64,000 bases of DNA, taken from contig JAOPGA020001156.1 in NCBI GenBank assembly GCA_026419775.2, positions 1 through 64,000 of the forward strand. Direction: 5' to 3'. This document shows, piece by piece, positions 1 through 60,127 of the stretch. Every line of letters starts with the position of its first letter. Positions within the stretch are counted from its first letter, which is position 1. The notes below the pieces were generated by a model. It saw nothing but the letters and a program-made list of their open reading frames with translations. It had not been told where the DNA came from and did no database searches. The position numbers and the translations under genes are program-made. The stretch comes from Acrasis kona (lineage: Eukaryota; Heterolobosea; Eutetramitea; Acrasida; Acrasidae).

Positions 1-200
1 TGTATGCTTATTTAATAGTCAACCAATATGTTCGAAGTCACACAGATGCTGGAAATATGTTATTTTATTACCGAAAGAGACGTGGCAAGAAATCAAAAAG
101 GGCTCTTGTGGAAACACCACGGATACTTTTGATGCTGTGAATTTCACACAAACACAGCACGAAATGTCAACAACCGGTTGATCCGAAAAAGAATCCATCC

Positions 201-880
201 GTGAAAGAATTCAATTTTTGGAAGATTGAAATGAAGCCTATCAAAATAGGATCCTGGAACGGTAAATTTACTTCTACCAAACCACCGCTGACAAACCGCT
301 CCCACAACATTGTCAACCTCCTCTTTAAGGTTGACATTTTATGCATCCAAGAGACCCACTACCTCCATTTGGAACTTCCCACCCTCCAACACAGTTTTGA
401 AAAACTTGGCCACATATGTATAGGACATGGATTGACAAACAAAAAAAAGCATGGATTGGTTGTTATCATGAAAAAGAGATTTCAAAACAATGTAATTATT
501 GTCTCCCGGAAGAACTCTACGTACAAAGGTCGAGCGATATGTATTTTGATTAACCTTGAACTCCACCCTACCACCATTGTCTGTGCCATACCAGTACCAC
601 CTCAAACAAAGAATCATTGGAAATTGAACAAGAAATCAAAGAATGAATTACAGGAGCATGTTTGAAAGACATGTCATTATTATCGCTGGTGATTTCAACA
701 TCTAAATTGATGATTCTTCAAAACGTGGTTGCCACCTTGCCAATTTCACGGACAAATTCCACCACTCTTCAGCAACAAACTCGCCCACGTTCTCGGGAAA
801 GTGCGTTGATAAGGCAATCATCTTTTTTTCCTGCTCAATTTCACTGCACTACCAAGTATTGAAGCTGTACCTACCCGCTG
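201..880 (+). pseudogene. Decayed LINE-type endonuclease (EEP fold) fragment
   Basis: The first open stretch (201-665) reads like the N-terminal half of the exonuclease-endonuclease-phosphatase domain of non-LTR retrotransposons: an IGSWNG start, a VDILCIQETH motif carrying the catalytic Glu, then GLVVIMKK. The next conserved block, IIIAGDFNI (673-702), sits in a different frame and is followed at once by a TAA (703). Later coding-like sequence, including CVDKAIIF, continues in that second frame to about 880. One frameshift plus one stop therefore break the domain, and no reverse transcriptase follows. Known family role: nicking target DNA for target-primed reverse transcription. This copy is an inactive remnant. 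Confidence 0.7.
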
Positions 881-6287: not shown

Positions 6288-9035
6288 CTATTCTTCATGT
6301 AAATAATGAACAAAAACGTCGCTCGATCTCAATGATTTCAAAACCAAATCTTGAAGAGATTTAGGATTCGAAGAAATGTAATCGACTGTATCCTTCTCTA
6401 ACGAAACAAAACTCTGGTGTATATCAAATATAGATTTTCTCAAGGACGATATCTCGTAGTAAACAACAAGAGCAGATCTCACTGACGTGTAGTTCCTGTC
6501 GACAACTTTATCTAAATGTGCCATGAACTTTTCAAGCCAATATTTCTTCTCTTCAAAAACTCTATAAAGACGACAAAAATCAGTTATAGAAGCAATGGAA
6601 GATAACACAAAACGAAAACACTCATTCATGGTGATTTCAAAATTTTCTGGATTACAAGGCACGTCATTCTCTTTTTGGTATGTAAATATTCTTGCGATTT
6701 GAGCACCATCAAGCATGGAGATGACTTCTTCTGATGTCACTTTATCACACAATATGGACACATAATAACGACCGGAATAGTCATAATTCAGATCGAAAGA
6801 AACATTCTCATCATCGAAAAAGTGTTTGGTGTAGAAAATTAAAAACTCTCTACAGTCATAGATGGAGGAGCGGACTATACTTGTCATGATTTTGAACCAT
6901 TTCTTGACTAAATCATCAAGATGCACTTCTTTCAAAACAAGCAGCAGTTCCATTATCTGGTCAACCAATACATTTTTGTACAAGTCAGATTCTAGAGGAT
7001 GACTCAAGATAACATCAGAATATTTAATGCCATTGGGAACATTACTCAAGATACTAATCAAAGTATTTTGGTATTTACTTTTTAATTTTTGAATGATTGA
7101 GCTTTTCAGAATGATTCGGTTGGAGTTGATGTGATCAATTCTTTTGATCAACTCCGGAGTGTCAACAGTTTGACACGATATGATGTCATAAATCTTATCA
7201 GGAATAACATTTAAATCAATTCCGGCATGATCCAACACGTGCAAAACATCAATCAACTCGTTCAAAGAGGTAATAAAATTCTCCGATAAATCATCGATAA
7301 TATAATTTAGAATTTCTTCTAATTTACCAGCGTCACAAGAACAACCCTCTTTGATTTTTTGCCAATGAGTCAACATTGTCAAGAGGGAATGCTCGTTTGC
7401 CATATCAATTGTATACTTCACGCCATCAAAATCATACTTGTTTATAATTTCAATAAAATACAAATTATTTTTAAAGATTTCCGTGATACAATTTAATTTC
7501 AAATCAGACAAGATTGGGTGTTCCATAAAGTAATTAAAAATAAAATCAAAAACAAACAAAGCATCAATGGTACCATCTGTCATTCTAACGTCAAATGAGT
7601 GATAAATTCTATAAAACAATTCATCGAGGCCCAAAAAATCAGCAGTAATTGCCAAGTCAACCAAACCATGTTTATCAATTTTGGAAATTTCCAACACTCC
7701 TCCGTACATGTAGCTCAGTGCAATCTCCAAACTAGTTTTTGATTTGATATTTTGATCAAAAAGACTCAAATCGACACATGTTTTTTTTACATGATCATCT
7801 TGATCGTCATTACAATCTTCATCAAACATGTTACAAAAAAATCGAGAAGTAGCAGACAGGACCTGACCATGACAAGGATAATCAGTATCAAGGTATTTTA
7901 CAATCATATCGGAACAGAATGTCCTTTGGAATGCACAAGACAAAACAAAATCATACAAATCATCCTGACATGTTGGCAGGGCATTATAATGCTCTTGAAA
8001 TTTATTTTGAAATTTATTAGATTGGTCCAAGATGGAATGCAAATTTAACACCCTTGATAAATCAACTTCCACCACTTCATTCGAATAATTATTCAAAATC
8101 AGTAATTTGTTGTTGTGCGAAAATAAACCAAAACTAAAAGGTAAATTGTAAGAATGTTTGAACACAAATCCGCTCGGTAAATGTATGGAGTCAACCGTGT
8201 CTTGGGACTCTGCAATAATCAGTACCGTCGGTGTGATTAGATGAAACGAGTCGACAAATGTGGATCGAAGTTTACGAAGAGGCGTGGTCAACTGCCAAGT
8301 TTTTTTGTAAACGTCCAAAGTGTAAATGTAAGTTCGATGGTATTCGATCATGACGAATAGATTGTCTCGAGATGTACAATTAAACTCTCGATCCAAAACA
8401 ATTTCGTAACCCTCGGTTTTGGGCACTTCCCAATTTGTCCATGATGCGTCCGAAGGGTTATATTCGTACATTGTCAACGTGCACATGTCGGCAAAGAGAA
8501 TGTTGTTGTTGGGAAGTATGGTCGATAGGAATGTAGCTGGCTTATGTGGAAGTTCGGCAGTGTATGCGAATGGAGTTTTGATGCATTTGAGTGTTGGAGT
8601 GTTGTTTGCTTCTTCTTTGTATATGGCCTGATAGACGTTGATACTTGTCGAGAGAATCGCCACCACAAAGACGGATTTTGTGGAATGATGGTAGATGGAC
8701 GACAAGCTTAAAAATGTTGCATCAACTTGGTTGATTGTGTACTTAACGGTGTTTTTGGATCTGATGCCGTCGTCCCCGTAGGCGAGTGTCTTGATGATTA
8801 TTTCACGATATTTTTGGCTAGGTTTCATAAAGAGTAGGAAATGGCCGGGCTGATGATATTTTATGATGGATTGAGATGATGTGTCATGTTCTCTTTCAAT
8901 CTTGTTAAGAACGAATCCATACAAAGACCATTTTGGAACTTTTGATAAAGTTACCATCCGTTGTTTTTTGGTAGGCGTTTCTATGCCGTCTGTTGTTTGT
9001 GAACTCTGTCTCTTCTTTGGAGTTCCCCTTCCCAT
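6288..9035 (-). CDS. Large BTB/POZ-domain protein, probable nuclear localisation
   Basis: A single-exon 915-aa protein. Residues 1-30 are basic (GRGTPKKRQ, PTKKQRM) and resemble a bipartite nuclear localisation signal. Residues about 35-330 are beta-rich with repeating short strands, compatible with a propeller-like fold, though no kelch or RCC1 consensus is visible. Residues about 360-480 form a BTB/POZ domain: FCSDMIVKYLD, CHGQVLSATSRFF, ALSYMYGGVLEI, AITADFLGLDELF. The rest is helical with no recognised domain. BTB proteins dimerise and often act as cullin-3 substrate adaptors or chromatin regulators; which applies here is not shown. The TATATA-like element at about 9068-9074 lies 33-39 bases before the start. 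Confidence 0.8.
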   Translation of the reverse strand: MGRGTPKKRQSSQTTDGIETPTKKQRMVTLSKVPKWSLYGFVLNKIEREHDTSSQSIIKYHQPGHFLLFMKPSQKYREIIIKTLAYGDDGIRSKNTVKYTINQVDATFLSLSSIYHHSTKSVFVVAILSTSINVYQAIYKEEANNTPTLKCIKTPFAYTAELPHKPATFLSTILPNNNILFADMCTLTMYEYNPSDASWTNWEVPKTEGYEIVLDREFNCTSRDNLFVMIEYHRTYIYTLDVYKKTWQLTTPLRKLRSTFVDSFHLITPTVLIIAESQDTVDSIHLPSGFVFKHSYNLPFSFGLFSHNNKLLILNNYSNEVVEVDLSRVLNLHSILDQSNKFQNKFQEHYNALPTCQDDLYDFVLSCAFQRTFCSDMIVKYLDTDYPCHGQVLSATSRFFCNMFDEDCNDDQDDHVKKTCVDLSLFDQNIKSKTSLEIALSYMYGGVLEISKIDKHGLVDLAITADFLGLDELFYRIYHSFDVRMTDGTIDALFVFDFIFNYFMEHPILSDLKLNCITEIFKNNLYFIEIINKYDFDGVKYTIDMANEHSLLTMLTHWQKIKEGCSCDAGKLEEILNYIIDDLSENFITSLNELIDVLHVLDHAGIDLNVIPDKIYDIISCQTVDTPELIKRIDHINSNRIILKSSIIQKLKSKYQNTLISILSNVPNGIKYSDVILSHPLESDLYKNVLVDQIMELLLVLKEVHLDDLVKKWFKIMTSIVRSSIYDCREFLIFYTKHFFDDENVSFDLNYDYSGRYYVSILCDKVTSEEVISMLDGAQIARIFTYQKENDVPCNPENFEITMNECFRFVLSSIASITDFCRLYRVFEEKKYWLEKFMAHLDKVVDRNYTSVRSALVVYYEISSLRKSIFDIHQSFVSLEKDTVDYISSNPKSLQDLVLKSLRSSDVFVHYLHEE

Positions 9036-9812: not shown

Positions 9813-12429
9813 TTAAAAAATGATTTCAATTCCTTCGAGTGCTTTTTCAACGCCTGTTTTTGCATTGTGATGTGTGTGGTCAATTATTCTTGTTTTGAAG
9901 TCGTTATAGTCTTCAAAAAGTTCTTTTTCTCTTTCACTTCGAATTCTATCTACAAGCTTAATATTGTTTAAAATCAAAACAAGGATTGTATGAGTATCAG
10001 TGTTTATAAAGACCTGTTTGGATGTTATATACGACCAATGAAATCTGTGTGCAATAAGTGGGCCATAAAACTCCTCGAATGAAGATCTATTAAACACAGC
10101 AATGCACTCGTCTTTGTTTAATTTAACTTGTGTCGGGCACTCATAGTGGTTGGAGACGAATACAAACAACTTGAAATCAGTGAGACCGGTATAGAATGAT
10201 TTGAATGCTTTGATTCGCTCACCTTTAATGTCATCTGCATTATGCCCCAAATCCTTTGTTTTATTCCTCCTGGGCGTTGCTAGCTTCATCTTATACAAGA
10301 TCGTAAGAGCAACGCCATCTACAGATTTCTTCTGTTTTGATTCTGGGTACAATATTTCATCTTTTTCTGAAATGTCCAAGGTGACAGCTGCATCAAACCC
10401 TTCAATTTTTTCTACGTTTGTGAAGTACACATTACGACTATTCCCAATGTTCTTGTCCTCTACACTCTCTAATGTCCTGGCTGCTCGACCATTTGGGTTG
10501 ATTGATGGATCTTTTAGTTCGTCGCTTTTACATTCGCCAACATTTACAAGAATGTCCTTCATATTGTCATTGGAAAACTTTGCACCCCTAAACATGTGCC
10601 CAATTTTGATATTTTCAAGACCAAGTAGGCTACGCAAATTCCCCGCGATGACACTATACGCGACAAAGAAATTTTCGTATGTCTCTCCTTGTTTTGGCAC
10701 ACTTTCCATGACAGAACGAATTTCTTTGAGAATAGATTTATGGTTATTGCTTTGAATAACGAGACGCACGAATACATTTGGCATGTCACAATAATAACGA
10801 CCGTCTTGTTCCATCCTCAAACTATATACTCCGGTCTCTGATAAAGGTAGCAATAGTTTTACGTCTTCATGAAATACAGGATCCTTTAGAAAGCAATAGT
10901 AGAATGCTTTCTTGATTTGTTCTGAATACTTGTCATCATATAATATTTGTTTGTAACCTTCTAATTCAATGTCTACTTTTAGTTGGATGTCATCAATCCT
11001 GCGCACATTTAAATGTTTTCCATTCATGAAATCATTGAAGGACTCTGATTCGGCTTTATCTTTGATCATCTCAGTGGTAGATTTCAAAAAATACTCCAGT
11101 GCCCTGGGTATATTGTTTTGTAGAGCGGTATGGATAAACACTCTACAACTACTCCAGCCATCATACAATGTGTTATCATAATTTTTTAAAACCTCAATAA
11201 TACCATCAGATTGTAGCGACGGGAGCGGGATGCGCACAGATTTGCGAGCACTTTTTCTAACGACTTCATTAAAGCTTATAATGCTGGTGCCACAAAATAC
11301 TGGTAACAGCACCACGTTGTGTACCACTCTCAAAACATTTGATGCAATTGCATACATGTTGTGGAACAAGGTCAAGGTGCCATCTTTTTCGAATAGCTGG
11401 TTATACTCATCGATTCCAAAATATATCAAGATCATTTCATCCTGGCTCATGTTGCGAGCAGCTCTGTAGTGATAGGCTACATGTCCAATAGCATCATTCA
11501 TATTGGGATAACCACCAAGTACTTGCGCTATTTCTTGTGAGAAGGAATCCAAATCTCTGCCACAAACTTTAGATATAAAGTATCCATACAGCAATCTTAT
11601 TGGCGCCGAGTGACCTGAACAGTCTGTACTACACACAGTCGATCCATTTCCATAACTTGTGAAGATCTGCAAGCAGTTTTCTAAAAGTCTGTTGAAACGC
11701 TGATACTTTTCACTGTTGCGATTCTTCTTTGAGAAGTTAATCATTTCGCCAACAGCCTCTTGGCACATTCTTGTTTTACCTGTACCAGGACCGTTTGAGA
11801 GGTCAACATTCTTAACACTATTTTTATCAACATTTGCGTTGGGATCCTTTTCAAATGAATCAAGAAACATTTCGGACGTTTTGAAACAGGCATCGTAAAT
11901 TGCTGCTACACTAACTTCGCGATCAACTAATTTCATGTTTAAGTTTTCGGTCGTGGCAATTAGTTTGTACTGATATACATCAAAATGTTGCGATAACAGG
12001 TCGTTGGCCTTTTTGAAATCTGTACAAAATGTTCCTATAAGAAATTAAATTTTGTTAAACAATTAAACTTACCGACTTCGAGATTAGGAGCATACTTAAA
12101 TCTACCTTGTTCATCCTGGGTAAGTTTGACTCTCTTCTTTGGGGGCTCGCAATCCTGTGGAAGTATTTCTTTTTTTACCACACACTCCATTACCCACTCG
12201 AAGGTTACAACTTTACCCACATCACCAACTTCAACTTCAGTCGGGATTTGATTATATACTTGATACGTATTCTATTTGTTAAAGACTTCTTTGAAAAGAA
12301 TGTTACCTCATCTATATTTTTTTTTTTGCATACTAAGCCTCCGTTGGCAGCAATAGTAAACATGACCTTAGAGGCTTGTTCAATCGGACCACTTATGTAG
12401 AAGATTTTGTCTTTGAAAAGTTCTGTCAT
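9813..12429 (-). CDS. BRCT - Crinkler-type P-loop NTPase - PD-(D/E)XK-like nuclease fusion protein
   Basis: Three exons join in frame: 12429-12307, 12271-12073 and 12034-9813 (introns of 35 and 38 nt), giving 847 aa. Residues 1-95 form a BRCT domain (KDKIFYISGPIEQASK, ANGGLV, VVTFEWVMECVVKKEILP), followed by a basic PPKKRVKL nuclear-localisation-like stretch. Residues about 185-400 are a STAND/AAA-like NTPase: Walker A GPGTGKTR (189-196), Walker B LIYFGIDEY (about 310-318), sensor-like VFCGTS. Near residues 655-675, FDAAVTLD followed by PESKQKK fits a D..ExK restriction-endonuclease-fold core, then beta strands and FNRSSFEEFYGPL. This NTPase-nuclease pairing is known from Crinkler (CRN/RHS-type) effectors and related selfish elements. 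Fusion to BRCT is the odd part. The nuclease assignment is inference. Confidence 0.7.
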
Positions 12430-32914: not shown

Positions 32915-32995
32915 CGTAAATTTAATTGACACTTTATTTTCATCTTCCTTAAAGAAGAAATAAATATTTTTAACTCTTTATTTTTAGTTTTCATC

Positions 32996-33004
32996 TATTT
33001 AAAG
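32996..33004 (+). promoter_or_regulatory. TATA-like box, left duplicate
   Basis: TATTTAAAG lies 46-54 bases before the ATG at 33050 and is conserved at the same distance in the right duplicate (60036-60044, minus strand), although nearby bases have diverged. An A-rich leader follows. Confidence 0.5.
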
Positions 33005-33049
33005 AACGAGACAGTTATCTTCTCTCTACACAAAAAAAAACACAACAAC

Positions 33050-33880
33050 ATGTCAACAGCAAACACTCTATTACCAACAACTGTACCAACAAAAGTTTTA
33101 GACGGTCCAGGAGCAACCACCGTCACTCAAACGACAGTCACACAAACAGCTTATGCCGCACCAGTCGAAGCCAAGTCACAAGTACTATCCCAAATCATGG
33201 GTGCCCTCATGGGTCTATCCATGTTTATTGGAGGTGTTCTACTACTAGTCGGTGCCGCCATCAGTTTGGCTGACTTTGGATATCACTACGTCGCCAGTGG
33301 TGTTCTCTGGATTATCGCCTTCTCCTTCTTCACATTAGCATCTGTATTCTCCTTCATTGGAGGATTTGACCTTGGAAACAAGAACTCAAGGACACCATAT
33401 CACTTTTTGAACATTATCGGAAGCATTGCCTTCTTCTTGGGAAGCATCCTTATGATTATTGGTGCCGCTTTATGGTTATCAGGCACAGATAGATTTGATA
33501 CTTTCAACGCTGGTACTATTATTTGGATTATTGGTTCCTCATTAATCCTTGCCTACTTCCTCTTAAGAAACTATGGTGCCATTGTGGATGGTATTTACTT
33601 GTACCACACCTACATGAACAACTTGACTAGTCGCACTAACGGTGCCACTACCTTCGAAGTTGCACCAAAGAGTCTAATCTCAAGTTTGTACTTGAACGGT
33701 ATTGCAACAGTCATGTACACTGTCGCTTCAGTTCTTTTGTTGTTAGGTTCCATCGCATGGACTAGTTTCCTCAGAACATTCTTCAGCAGGTCATTCCAAA
33801 CTGAAGCAGGTGTCTTGTGGGTCATTGCTGGTTCATTGTATCTAATTGCCGGCTTGTTACAAATTGCAGCACGTAGATAA
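33050..33880 (+). CDS. Six-TM hydrophobic protein, copy A
   Basis: A 276-aa single-exon protein. Residues 1-45 are Thr/Pro/Val-rich and cytosolic-like (TTVTQTTVTQTAYA). Six hydrophobic helices follow, e.g. GALMGLSMFIGGVLLLVGA, VLWIIAFSFFTLASVFSFIG, IIWIIGSSLILAYFLL and VLWVIAGSLYLIAGLLQIA. The pattern resembles YrhK-like or tetraspan membrane proteins, but no family is recognised. Strong codon preference (TTG/CTT Leu, GGT Gly) and a consensus leader hint at high expression. An identical protein is encoded at 59161-59991. Confidence 0.8.
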   Translation: MSTANTLLPTTVPTKVLDGPGATTVTQTTVTQTAYAAPVEAKSQVLSQIMGALMGLSMFIGGVLLLVGAAISLADFGYHYVASGVLWIIAFSFFTLASVFSFIGGFDLGNKNSRTPYHFLNIIGSIAFFLGSILMIIGAALWLSGTDRFDTFNAGTIIWIIGSSLILAYFLLRNYGAIVDGIYLYHTYMNNLTSRTNGATTFEVAPKSLISSLYLNGIATVMYTVASVLLLLGSIAWTSFLRTFFSRSFQTEAGVLWVIAGSLYLIAGLLQIAARR

Positions 33881-59000: not shown

Positions 59001-60127
59001 TAATAGTTCTCCTCATGTCTCATCAATTGCAGTAATCGTTAAAGTTGAGTTGAATCAACCTTCATTACAATGAGTCACCTAACTTTCTTTTACAGATGCC
59101 AAAAAGTTGTCGATAAGGAAAGATAACATTCGCATAATACAAAATTAATTTTATTTACATTTATCTACGTGCTGCAATTTGTAACAAGCCGGCAATTAGA
59201 TACAATGAACCAGCAATGACCCACAAGACACCTGCTTCAGTTTGGAATGACCTGCTGAAGAATGTTCTGAGGAAACTAGTCCATGCGATGGAACCTAACA
59301 ACAAAAGAACTGAAGCGACAGTGTACATGACTGTTGCAATACCGTTCAAGTACAAACTTGAGATTAGACTCTTTGGTGCAACTTCGAAGGTGGTGGCACC
59401 GTTAGTGCGACTAGTCAAGTTGTTCATGTAGGTGTGGTACAAGTAAATACCATCCACAATGGCACCATAGTTTCTTAAGAGGAAGTAGGCAAGGATTAAT
59501 GAGGAACCAATAATCCAAATAATAGTACCGGCGTTGAAGGTATCAAATCTATCTGTGCCTGATAACCATAAAGCGGCACCAATAATCATAAGGATGCTTC
59601 CCAAGAAGAAGGCAATGCTTCCGATGATGTTCAAAAAGTGATATGGTGTCCTTGAGTTCTTGTTTCCAAGGTCAAATCCTCCAATGAAGGAGAATACAGA
59701 TGCTAATGTGAAGAAGGAGAAGGCGATAATCCAGAGAACGCCACTGGCGACGTAGTGATATCCAAAGTCAGCCAAACTGATGGCGGCACCGACTAGTAGT
59801 AGAACGCCTCCGATAAACATTGATAGACCCATGAGGGCACCCATGATTTGGGATAGTACTTGTGACTTGGCTTCGACTGGTGCGGCATAAGCTGTTTGTG
59901 TGACTGTGGTTTGAGTGACGGTGGTTGCTCCTGGACCGTCTAAAACTTTTGTTGGTACAGTTGTTGGTAATAGAGTGTTTGCTGTTGACATGTTGTTGTG
60001 TTTTTTTTGTGTATAGAGAAGATAATTGTCTCGTTCTTTAAATAGAGGAAAACTAAAAATAAAGAGTTAAAAATATTTATTTCTTCTTTAAGGAGGATGA
60101 AAATAAAGTGTCAAATTGAATTCACGA
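59001..60127 (-). repeat. Right copy of the 1.1-kb inverted duplication
   Basis: Reverse-oriented partner of 32915-34040, about 25 kb away. Contains promoter, coding region and 3' flank. Differences include GTCGTGAATTC versus CCGTAAATT at the outer edge and single substitutions in the leader; sequence beyond both borders is unrelated. Confidence 0.9.
59161..59991 (-). CDS. Six-TM hydrophobic protein, copy B
   Basis: Encodes exactly the same 276 residues as the gene at 33050-33880. About nine third-position differences (for example CAAACC for CAAACG, TCA for TCC, GGC for GGT, ACC for ACT) are all silent. This shows the duplication is not an assembly artefact and that selection or recent conversion has held the protein constant. 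TATA-like TATTTAAAG is at 60036-60044. Function unknown, probably abundant membrane protein. Confidence 0.8.
   Translation of the reverse strand: MSTANTLLPTTVPTKVLDGPGATTVTQTTVTQTAYAAPVEAKSQVLSQIMGALMGLSMFIGGVLLLVGAAISLADFGYHYVASGVLWIIAFSFFTLASVFSFIGGFDLGNKNSRTPYHFLNIIGSIAFFLGSILMIIGAALWLSGTDRFDTFNAGTIIWIIGSSLILAYFLLRNYGAIVDGIYLYHTYMNNLTSRTNGATTFEVAPKSLISSLYLNGIATVMYTVASVLLLLGSIAWTSFLRTFFSRSFQTEAGVLWVIAGSLYLIAGLLQIAARR

Follow-up and report, generated by a model that had tools for sequence, protein, structure and literature searches.

A BRCT domain spliced in frame to a Crinkler-RHS-like NTPase in the predicted product of an Acrasis kona gene

Removal of two predicted GT-AG introns from the minus strand of Acrasis kona DNA leaves a single frame of 847 codons plus stop (12429-9813 of the window, the whole 64,000-nucleotide stretch analysed here), in which a BRCT domain precedes a P-loop NTPase. 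The BRCT-NTPase fusion is real as sequence and apparently old, and its layout appears to be common to a paralogue in the same genome. The gene is built like a Crinkler-RHS (CR) protein, with a BRCT domain occupying the place of the header, and its product may act on DNA in the nucleus of its own cell.

Results

The features along the spliced translation are listed in Table 1. The 35- and 38-nt introns that a preliminary description had proposed have GT-AG ends and restore the 847-aa frame with no internal stop, and the motifs that it had placed along the frame (VVTFEWVMECVV, Walker A, the Walker B-like motif and GFD...ESK) are all present; splicing of the 847-aa product remains predicted. The neighbouring genes at the locus, START and BTB, are ordinary. 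A 298-aa piece of exon 3 (window 9816-10709, minus strand) stands in the database as a separate protein, P0003, as expected from intron-blind gene calling.

Table 1. Features of the query gene, in positions of the window
Feature	Position	Strand	Description
Exon 1	12307..12429	-	ATG and first BRCT half, residues 1-41; spliced translation
Intron 1 (predicted)	12272..12306	-	35 nt, GT-AG, phase 0
Exon 2	12073..12271	-	Second BRCT half and basic linker
VVTFEWVMECV, BRCT second half	12179-12211	-	Within exon 2
PPKKRVKL basic patch, residues 84-91	12122..12145	-	NLS-like
Intron 2 (predicted)	12035..12072	-	38 nt, GT-AG, phase 1
Exon 3	9813..12034	-	P-loop NTPase, REase-like segment, HhH-like tail, stop
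Walker A NGPGTGKT, residues 188-195 (GPGTGKT 189-195)	11772..11795	-	Translation and alignment A2
Walker B-like LIYFGIDEYNQL, residues 310-321 (LIYFGIDEY from 310)	11394..11429	-	Translation
REase-like GFD...ILYPESKQ, residues 653-675	10332..10400	-	D...ExK by eye
HhH-like tail	9879..10010	-	Aligned with helix-hairpin-helix-like tails of relatives

The spliced residues 1-108 matched the Pfam model BRCT_2 at positions 4-80 with 32.2 bits (E 1.4e-7; cut-off 27.3), compared to 17.1 bits for exon 1 with its read-through and 15.1 bits for exon 2, both below the cut-off. This score, together with the paralogue described below, bears out the proposal that a BRCT domain is spliced in frame onto a P-loop NTPase. 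The same residues scored 19.8, 17.6 and 13.7 bits with LIG3_BRCT, BRCT and BRCT_3, each under its own cut-off. Profile-profile (HH) comparison of the two-member header with nine further BRCT domains from this genome gave a score of 43.7 (42.8 for the query alone), and the maximum over 40 column shuffles was 16.1. The nine-domain profile comprised seven of the eight genomic BRCT loci and two repeat-borne domains; L005, which contains stops, was excluded. Against PDB sequences, the spliced BRCT returned 13 weak matches up to E 10 (best E 0.042), ten of them to BARD1 or TopBP1 and three to kallikrein-7.

BRCT domains are marked by a Gly pair after helix 1 and by the Trp of helix 3, and those that bind phosphopeptides have a pocket of Ser/Thr-Gly plus Lys. 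The query shows NGGLV at 29-33 and TFEW at 64-67; inspection by eye found SG at 13-14 and, ahead of the Trp, no lysine where the spacing would call for it. Behind the domain lies the basic patch PPKKRVKL, which we take to resemble known nuclear localisation signals. Shuffling residues 1-140 produced KKRx[KR] in 0.3% of cases; for the less strict K[KR]x[KR] the figure was 20%, and the patch is not kept as such in the paralogue.

That paralogue, C418, is the nearest one, 43% identical to the query, with an 864-aa predicted product and introns of 37, 36 and 39 nt. Its first intron (37 nt, phase 0) falls at the same aligned residue as intron 1 of the query and its second (36 nt, phase 1) within about 3 aligned residues of intron 2, phases in both genes being assigned by eye. 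Because the N-terminus of C418 by itself matched no Pfam BRCT model, its BRCT call relies on the alignment, on the intron and on the shared VVTYEW. The two proteins are identical at 22/70 residues of the BRCT domain, 14/56 of the linker, 130/278 of the NTPase, 80/219 of the middle part and 92/207 (44%) of the end (residues 641-847). With dN at 0.57 and synonymous sites (dS) saturated, the divergence fits that expected under long purifying selection.

The G, G, K and R of the Walker A pattern GxGKxR are invariant in 7/7 rows of alignment A2, as is the DEY of the Walker B-like motif; the C76 row is an unspliced reading with a 13-residue insertion in the Walker A region. Pfam gave AAA_19 for the query, with no more than 13.3 bits under a cut-off of 25.1.

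The claim of a nuclease-like C-terminus fared less evenly: D...ExK is readable in the query, but it is poorly kept among the relatives. Seven sequences reach the segment (the query, C418, C744, C821, C76, P0002 and P0004; P0001 ends upstream of it), and read by eye the D is present in five and the strict ExK in one, the query. At the ExK position C418 has EVL, C744 and C821 have QHK, C76 has EQL, and P0002 and P0004 have DQR. A second ECK in the query (residues 608-610) is unconserved in A2. AlphaFold models of exon 3 reached a pLDDT of 31.1 alone and 33.1 with four database rows, and because both were unusable we treat the REase fold as hypothetical. A nuclease-like C-terminus of the query is possible.

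Six tails were scanned with Pfam. P0002 matched HHH_3 (20.6 bits), C821 matched HHH_6 (18.9 bits), and C76 matched HHH_6 (18.5 bits) and DUF655 (22.4 bits), the last being the sole match among the six tails to pass its cut-off (22.2). The query tail gave 15.8 bits with DUF655, a family that presumably belongs to the HhH clan, and the tails of C418 and P0004 gave no HhH-type match. HhH-like matches were found in 3/6 tails and were weak; the tails align.

Relatives were sought in a collection of 5.8 billion proteins, where about 8000 word-sharing candidates were scored per search, so that all counts are lower bounds. Of the 7999 candidates scored for exon 3 alone, none reached E <= 0.001. Profile A1 recovered at least P0001 and P0002 among 7998, and profile A2 at least P0001, P0002, P0004 and P0003, the fragment of the query gene, among 7993. 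P0002 (EukProt, 988 aa) and P0004 (JGI, 721 aa) are like the query in the NTPase and, by eye, in the REase-like segment and tail; unlike the query, they have D...DQR in place of D...ExK and no BRCT was seen in them, nor was one seen in P0001. The N-terminus of P0002 looks ubiquitin-like by eye, as in a typical Crinkler header, and had no Pfam match. Searched back against the genome, P0002 led to C418 and P0004 to nothing. Viral contigs gave 42 pattern matches and no confirmed relative, and the exon-3 profile met only three sub-threshold pentatricopeptide matches among PDB sequences. An NCBIfam scan of five proteins gave no useful match, and a PADLOC scan of the query gave none.

A protein search of the genome with exon 3 found five NTPase loci (six rows, C76 appearing twice): the query, C418, C744, C821 and C76. 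The header is of BRCT type at the query and C418, and another module takes its place at C744, C821 and C76. This non-BRCT N-terminal module occurs at nine places in the genome, and a Pfam scan of one copy gave no match. At C363:6200-8420 (L056) it is followed by the start of the NTPase only and then by unrecognised sequence, a truncated member of the family.

The NTPase copies of C744 and C821 (L016:1-2731 and L017:3207-5924) are 98.2% identical over 2.7 kb, the shared tract beginning at the ATG, and their flanks are unrelated on the one side covered by both contigs; over 603 codons the dN/dS between them was about 0.84, a near-neutral value. The NTPase gene of C76 is bracketed by a 143-bp direct repeat (L018:4307-4449 and 8078-8220, 97.9%), whose source is the end of the neighbouring kelch/F-box-like gene (named by eye). 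The gene is arranged as if inserted with a duplicated piece of its target.

A second family in the genome pairs a BRCT-like ORF with a nuclease-type ORF. At its six intact loci (C76, C334, C667, C744, C676 and C550) the PD-(D/E)xK ORF comes immediately after the BRCT-like one on the same strand, overlapping it or within 30 nt; the two ORFs are presumably joined by a short intron. The D, E, K and Q of the PD-(D/E)xK site are kept in all six intact copies. The search gave twelve rows for eight loci. Two of these loci, C37 and C671, are decayed, and because C334 and C667 are 99% identical the six intact copies amount to five distinct sequences. This pair (L045:3461-5369 and L046:3377-5277) is 99.0% identical over 1.9 kb, with a dN/dS of about 0.12 from six changes. 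PADLOC PD_DExK matched weakly in both members scanned, and a PDB sequence search with the family gave no match.

The headers of the second family are BRCT-like in their first half only. BRCT_2 matched 3/6 N-termini, at best with 22.5 bits and below the cut-off, and the HH score against the BRCT profile was 31.5 over 46/71 columns, where shuffles reached at most 16.0. No match was obtained between the profile built from the query and C418 headers and that of the second family (HH probability 5.5%), which suggests that the headers of the NTPase family and of the second family were probably acquired separately. The NTPase genes of C744 and C76 have second-family genes close by, separated at C76 by the kelch gene. 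At two of the five NTPase loci a second-family gene is no more than about 3 kb away, compared to about 0.01 of five loci estimated within 5 kb by chance (eight loci in 37.35 Mb).

Several of the 50 BRCT rows in the genome come from short BRCT genes repeated in two sets, one at L026:1499-1879 (C815) and L027-L030, the other at L022:2838-3257 and L023:2885-3274 (C295, C465) and at L019, L020, L024 and L025. These copies were suspected of belonging to the family under study, which they do not. In L026 an ORF that by eye is RNase H-like, of LINE type, comes after the BRCT ORF, and BRCT domains may ride on retroelements in this genome. The window itself holds a LINE endonuclease-domain-like ORF (141-662, plus strand; by eye) and two ORFs sharing MSTANTLLPTTVPTKVLDGPG in opposite orientation about 25 kb apart (32930-33877, plus strand; 59164-60066, minus strand).

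Comparison with CR proteins showed an overall likeness in layout. In the parts of the literature considered here, CR proteins are described as joining diverse headers to an NTPase and an REase and as occurring in free-living eukaryotes (PMC5289972, following Zhang et al. 2016), the Rhizophagus CRNs as having REase, NTPase4 and HhH domains (PMC6131194), and the Ubl-NTPase-REase layout is restated in a further paper (PMC11064341). The query has a header, a P-loop NTPase and, by eye, an REase-like region in the same order, and its HhH-like tail recalls the Rhizophagus CRNs. It differs in that a BRCT domain and an NLS-like patch stand where CR proteins have a ubiquitin-like or helical header, and its relatives differ in their degenerate active site. 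The comparison is with published layouts. Eudicot CR proteins with Myb-type headers, for which an aim at intracellular invasive DNA is suggested in the part of PMC5289972 considered, are like the query in carrying a nuclear, DNA-linked header for a translocation header, although theirs is HTH and not BRCT. The second family shares with the query a BRCT-like part ahead of a nuclease-like one; unlike the query, it has no NTPase and its D...ExK...Q site is canonical.

The label 'Crinkler-type' given in the preliminary description finds support in the domain order and none from the family models. The Crinkler model PF20147 and the RHSP model PF07999 had no match in the genome, and the control for each model also gave none, so that absence from the genome does not follow. 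Although the gene is built like a CR protein, it should not be classed as a Crinkler: it lacks the ubiquitin-like header, and the other features are not decisive. Among the papers listed by the literature search no link between Crinklers and BRCT domains was found, the word BRCT being absent from PMC5289972; a BRCT header may still figure among those tabulated by Zhang et al. 2016.

Discussion

We tentatively propose that the gene encodes a BRCT-headed, CR-like NTPase that works as a nuclear DNA-targeting enzyme of its own cell and not as an exported toxin, a reading that we hold at a little under an even chance. The basic patch would allow entry of the protein into the nucleus, and the BRCT domain could dock it onto a partner located at chromatin or at DNA ends. 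Bound NTP would gate the nuclease-like module, the HhH-like tail would hold the DNA, and DNA marked as damaged or invading, for example retroelement intermediates, might be cut or trapped. The spliced frame, the BRCT domain, the Walker motifs, the C418 paralogue and the second BRCT-like/PD-(D/E)xK family support this role, together with the basic patch, the five NTPase loci, the relatives outside the genome, the weak HhH-like tails and the published CR layouts. Against it stand the rarity of the strict ExK (1/7, with E-V-L in C418; D in 5/7) together with the unusable models (pLDDT 31.1 and 33.1), and the missing Crinkler and RHSP matches in a genome where the controls were silent too. The C418 N-terminus has no BRCT match of its own and the second-family header is only half BRCT-like; the basic patch is unconserved in C418 and its looser pattern arises in 20% of shuffles; and the BRCT pocket has the SG but not the lysine.

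The main rival keeps the nucleus and drops the cutting. The protein would then be a nuclease-dead, NTP-driven DNA-binding factor with a relic REase segment, serving the cell's own repair or chromatin through its BRCT, NTPase and HhH parts. The unconserved triad, with ExK in one of seven sequences while DEY and the G, G, K and R of Walker A do not vary in any of the seven aligned rows, and the long-term constraint between the query and C418 both point in this direction. However, the query retains D...ExK, and conservation of residues 641-847 is close to that of the NTPase region (92/207 versus 130/278), and we consider loss of the nuclease unlikely, though it deserves serious weight.

An effector or toxin of Crinkler type, exported against other cells, would share its layout with the CR effectors, and the CRN effectors localised to date are described, in the part of PMC5289972 considered, as accumulating in the nucleus in planta. 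Yet the BRCT match begins at residue 4, no signal-peptide-like start was seen by eye, and no Crinkler header was found in the genome (the control being silent too), which makes export improbable. The two families might also act jointly as a BRCT-guided nuclear immune system, in which a Crinkler-like NTPase and a PD-(D/E)xK nuclease would be recruited to breaks by their BRCT headers and would cut retroelement integration intermediates, the targeted elements carrying BRCT domains themselves. This joint reading, with all its parts, we consider improbable.

That the query gene is part of a selfish or mobile element, like the trypanosome RHS genes, seems very improbable. Its family does show the 98.2% identity of C744 and C821 over 2.7 kb followed by unrelated flanks, the C76 copy bracketed by the 143-bp direct repeat of the kelch gene, and dispersed nuclease-family copies, two of them decayed. 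The query, in contrast, is single-copy in the genome, 43% identical to its nearest paralogue and placed among ordinary START and BTB neighbours, with no self-match in the surrounding 11 kb (blastn, E 1e-5, a search that short repeats would escape), and the 98.2% tract has an ATG at its start in place of a transposon-typical repeat. The earlier suggestion of a selfish device is thus unsupported at this locus. The fusion of two adjacent genes by an erroneous gene model is the least credible alternative and barely worth entertaining: both introns are known as predictions from DNA alone, but C418 has a BRCT-like N-terminus and keeps both introns in position and phase, the BRCT score is recovered by splicing only, and the spliced frame has no stop between the BRCT and NTPase parts.

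CR and Crinkler proteins are known mainly as injected effectors, and their use in free-living organisms is unexplained. The BRCT domain and the NLS-like patch of the A. kona protein suggest a testable role in the nucleus of its own cell. If this is true, some CR proteins would be aimed at damaged or invading DNA. Two BRCT-type-headed lineages in one genome would mean that conflict nucleases had independently recruited a reader of DNA damage.
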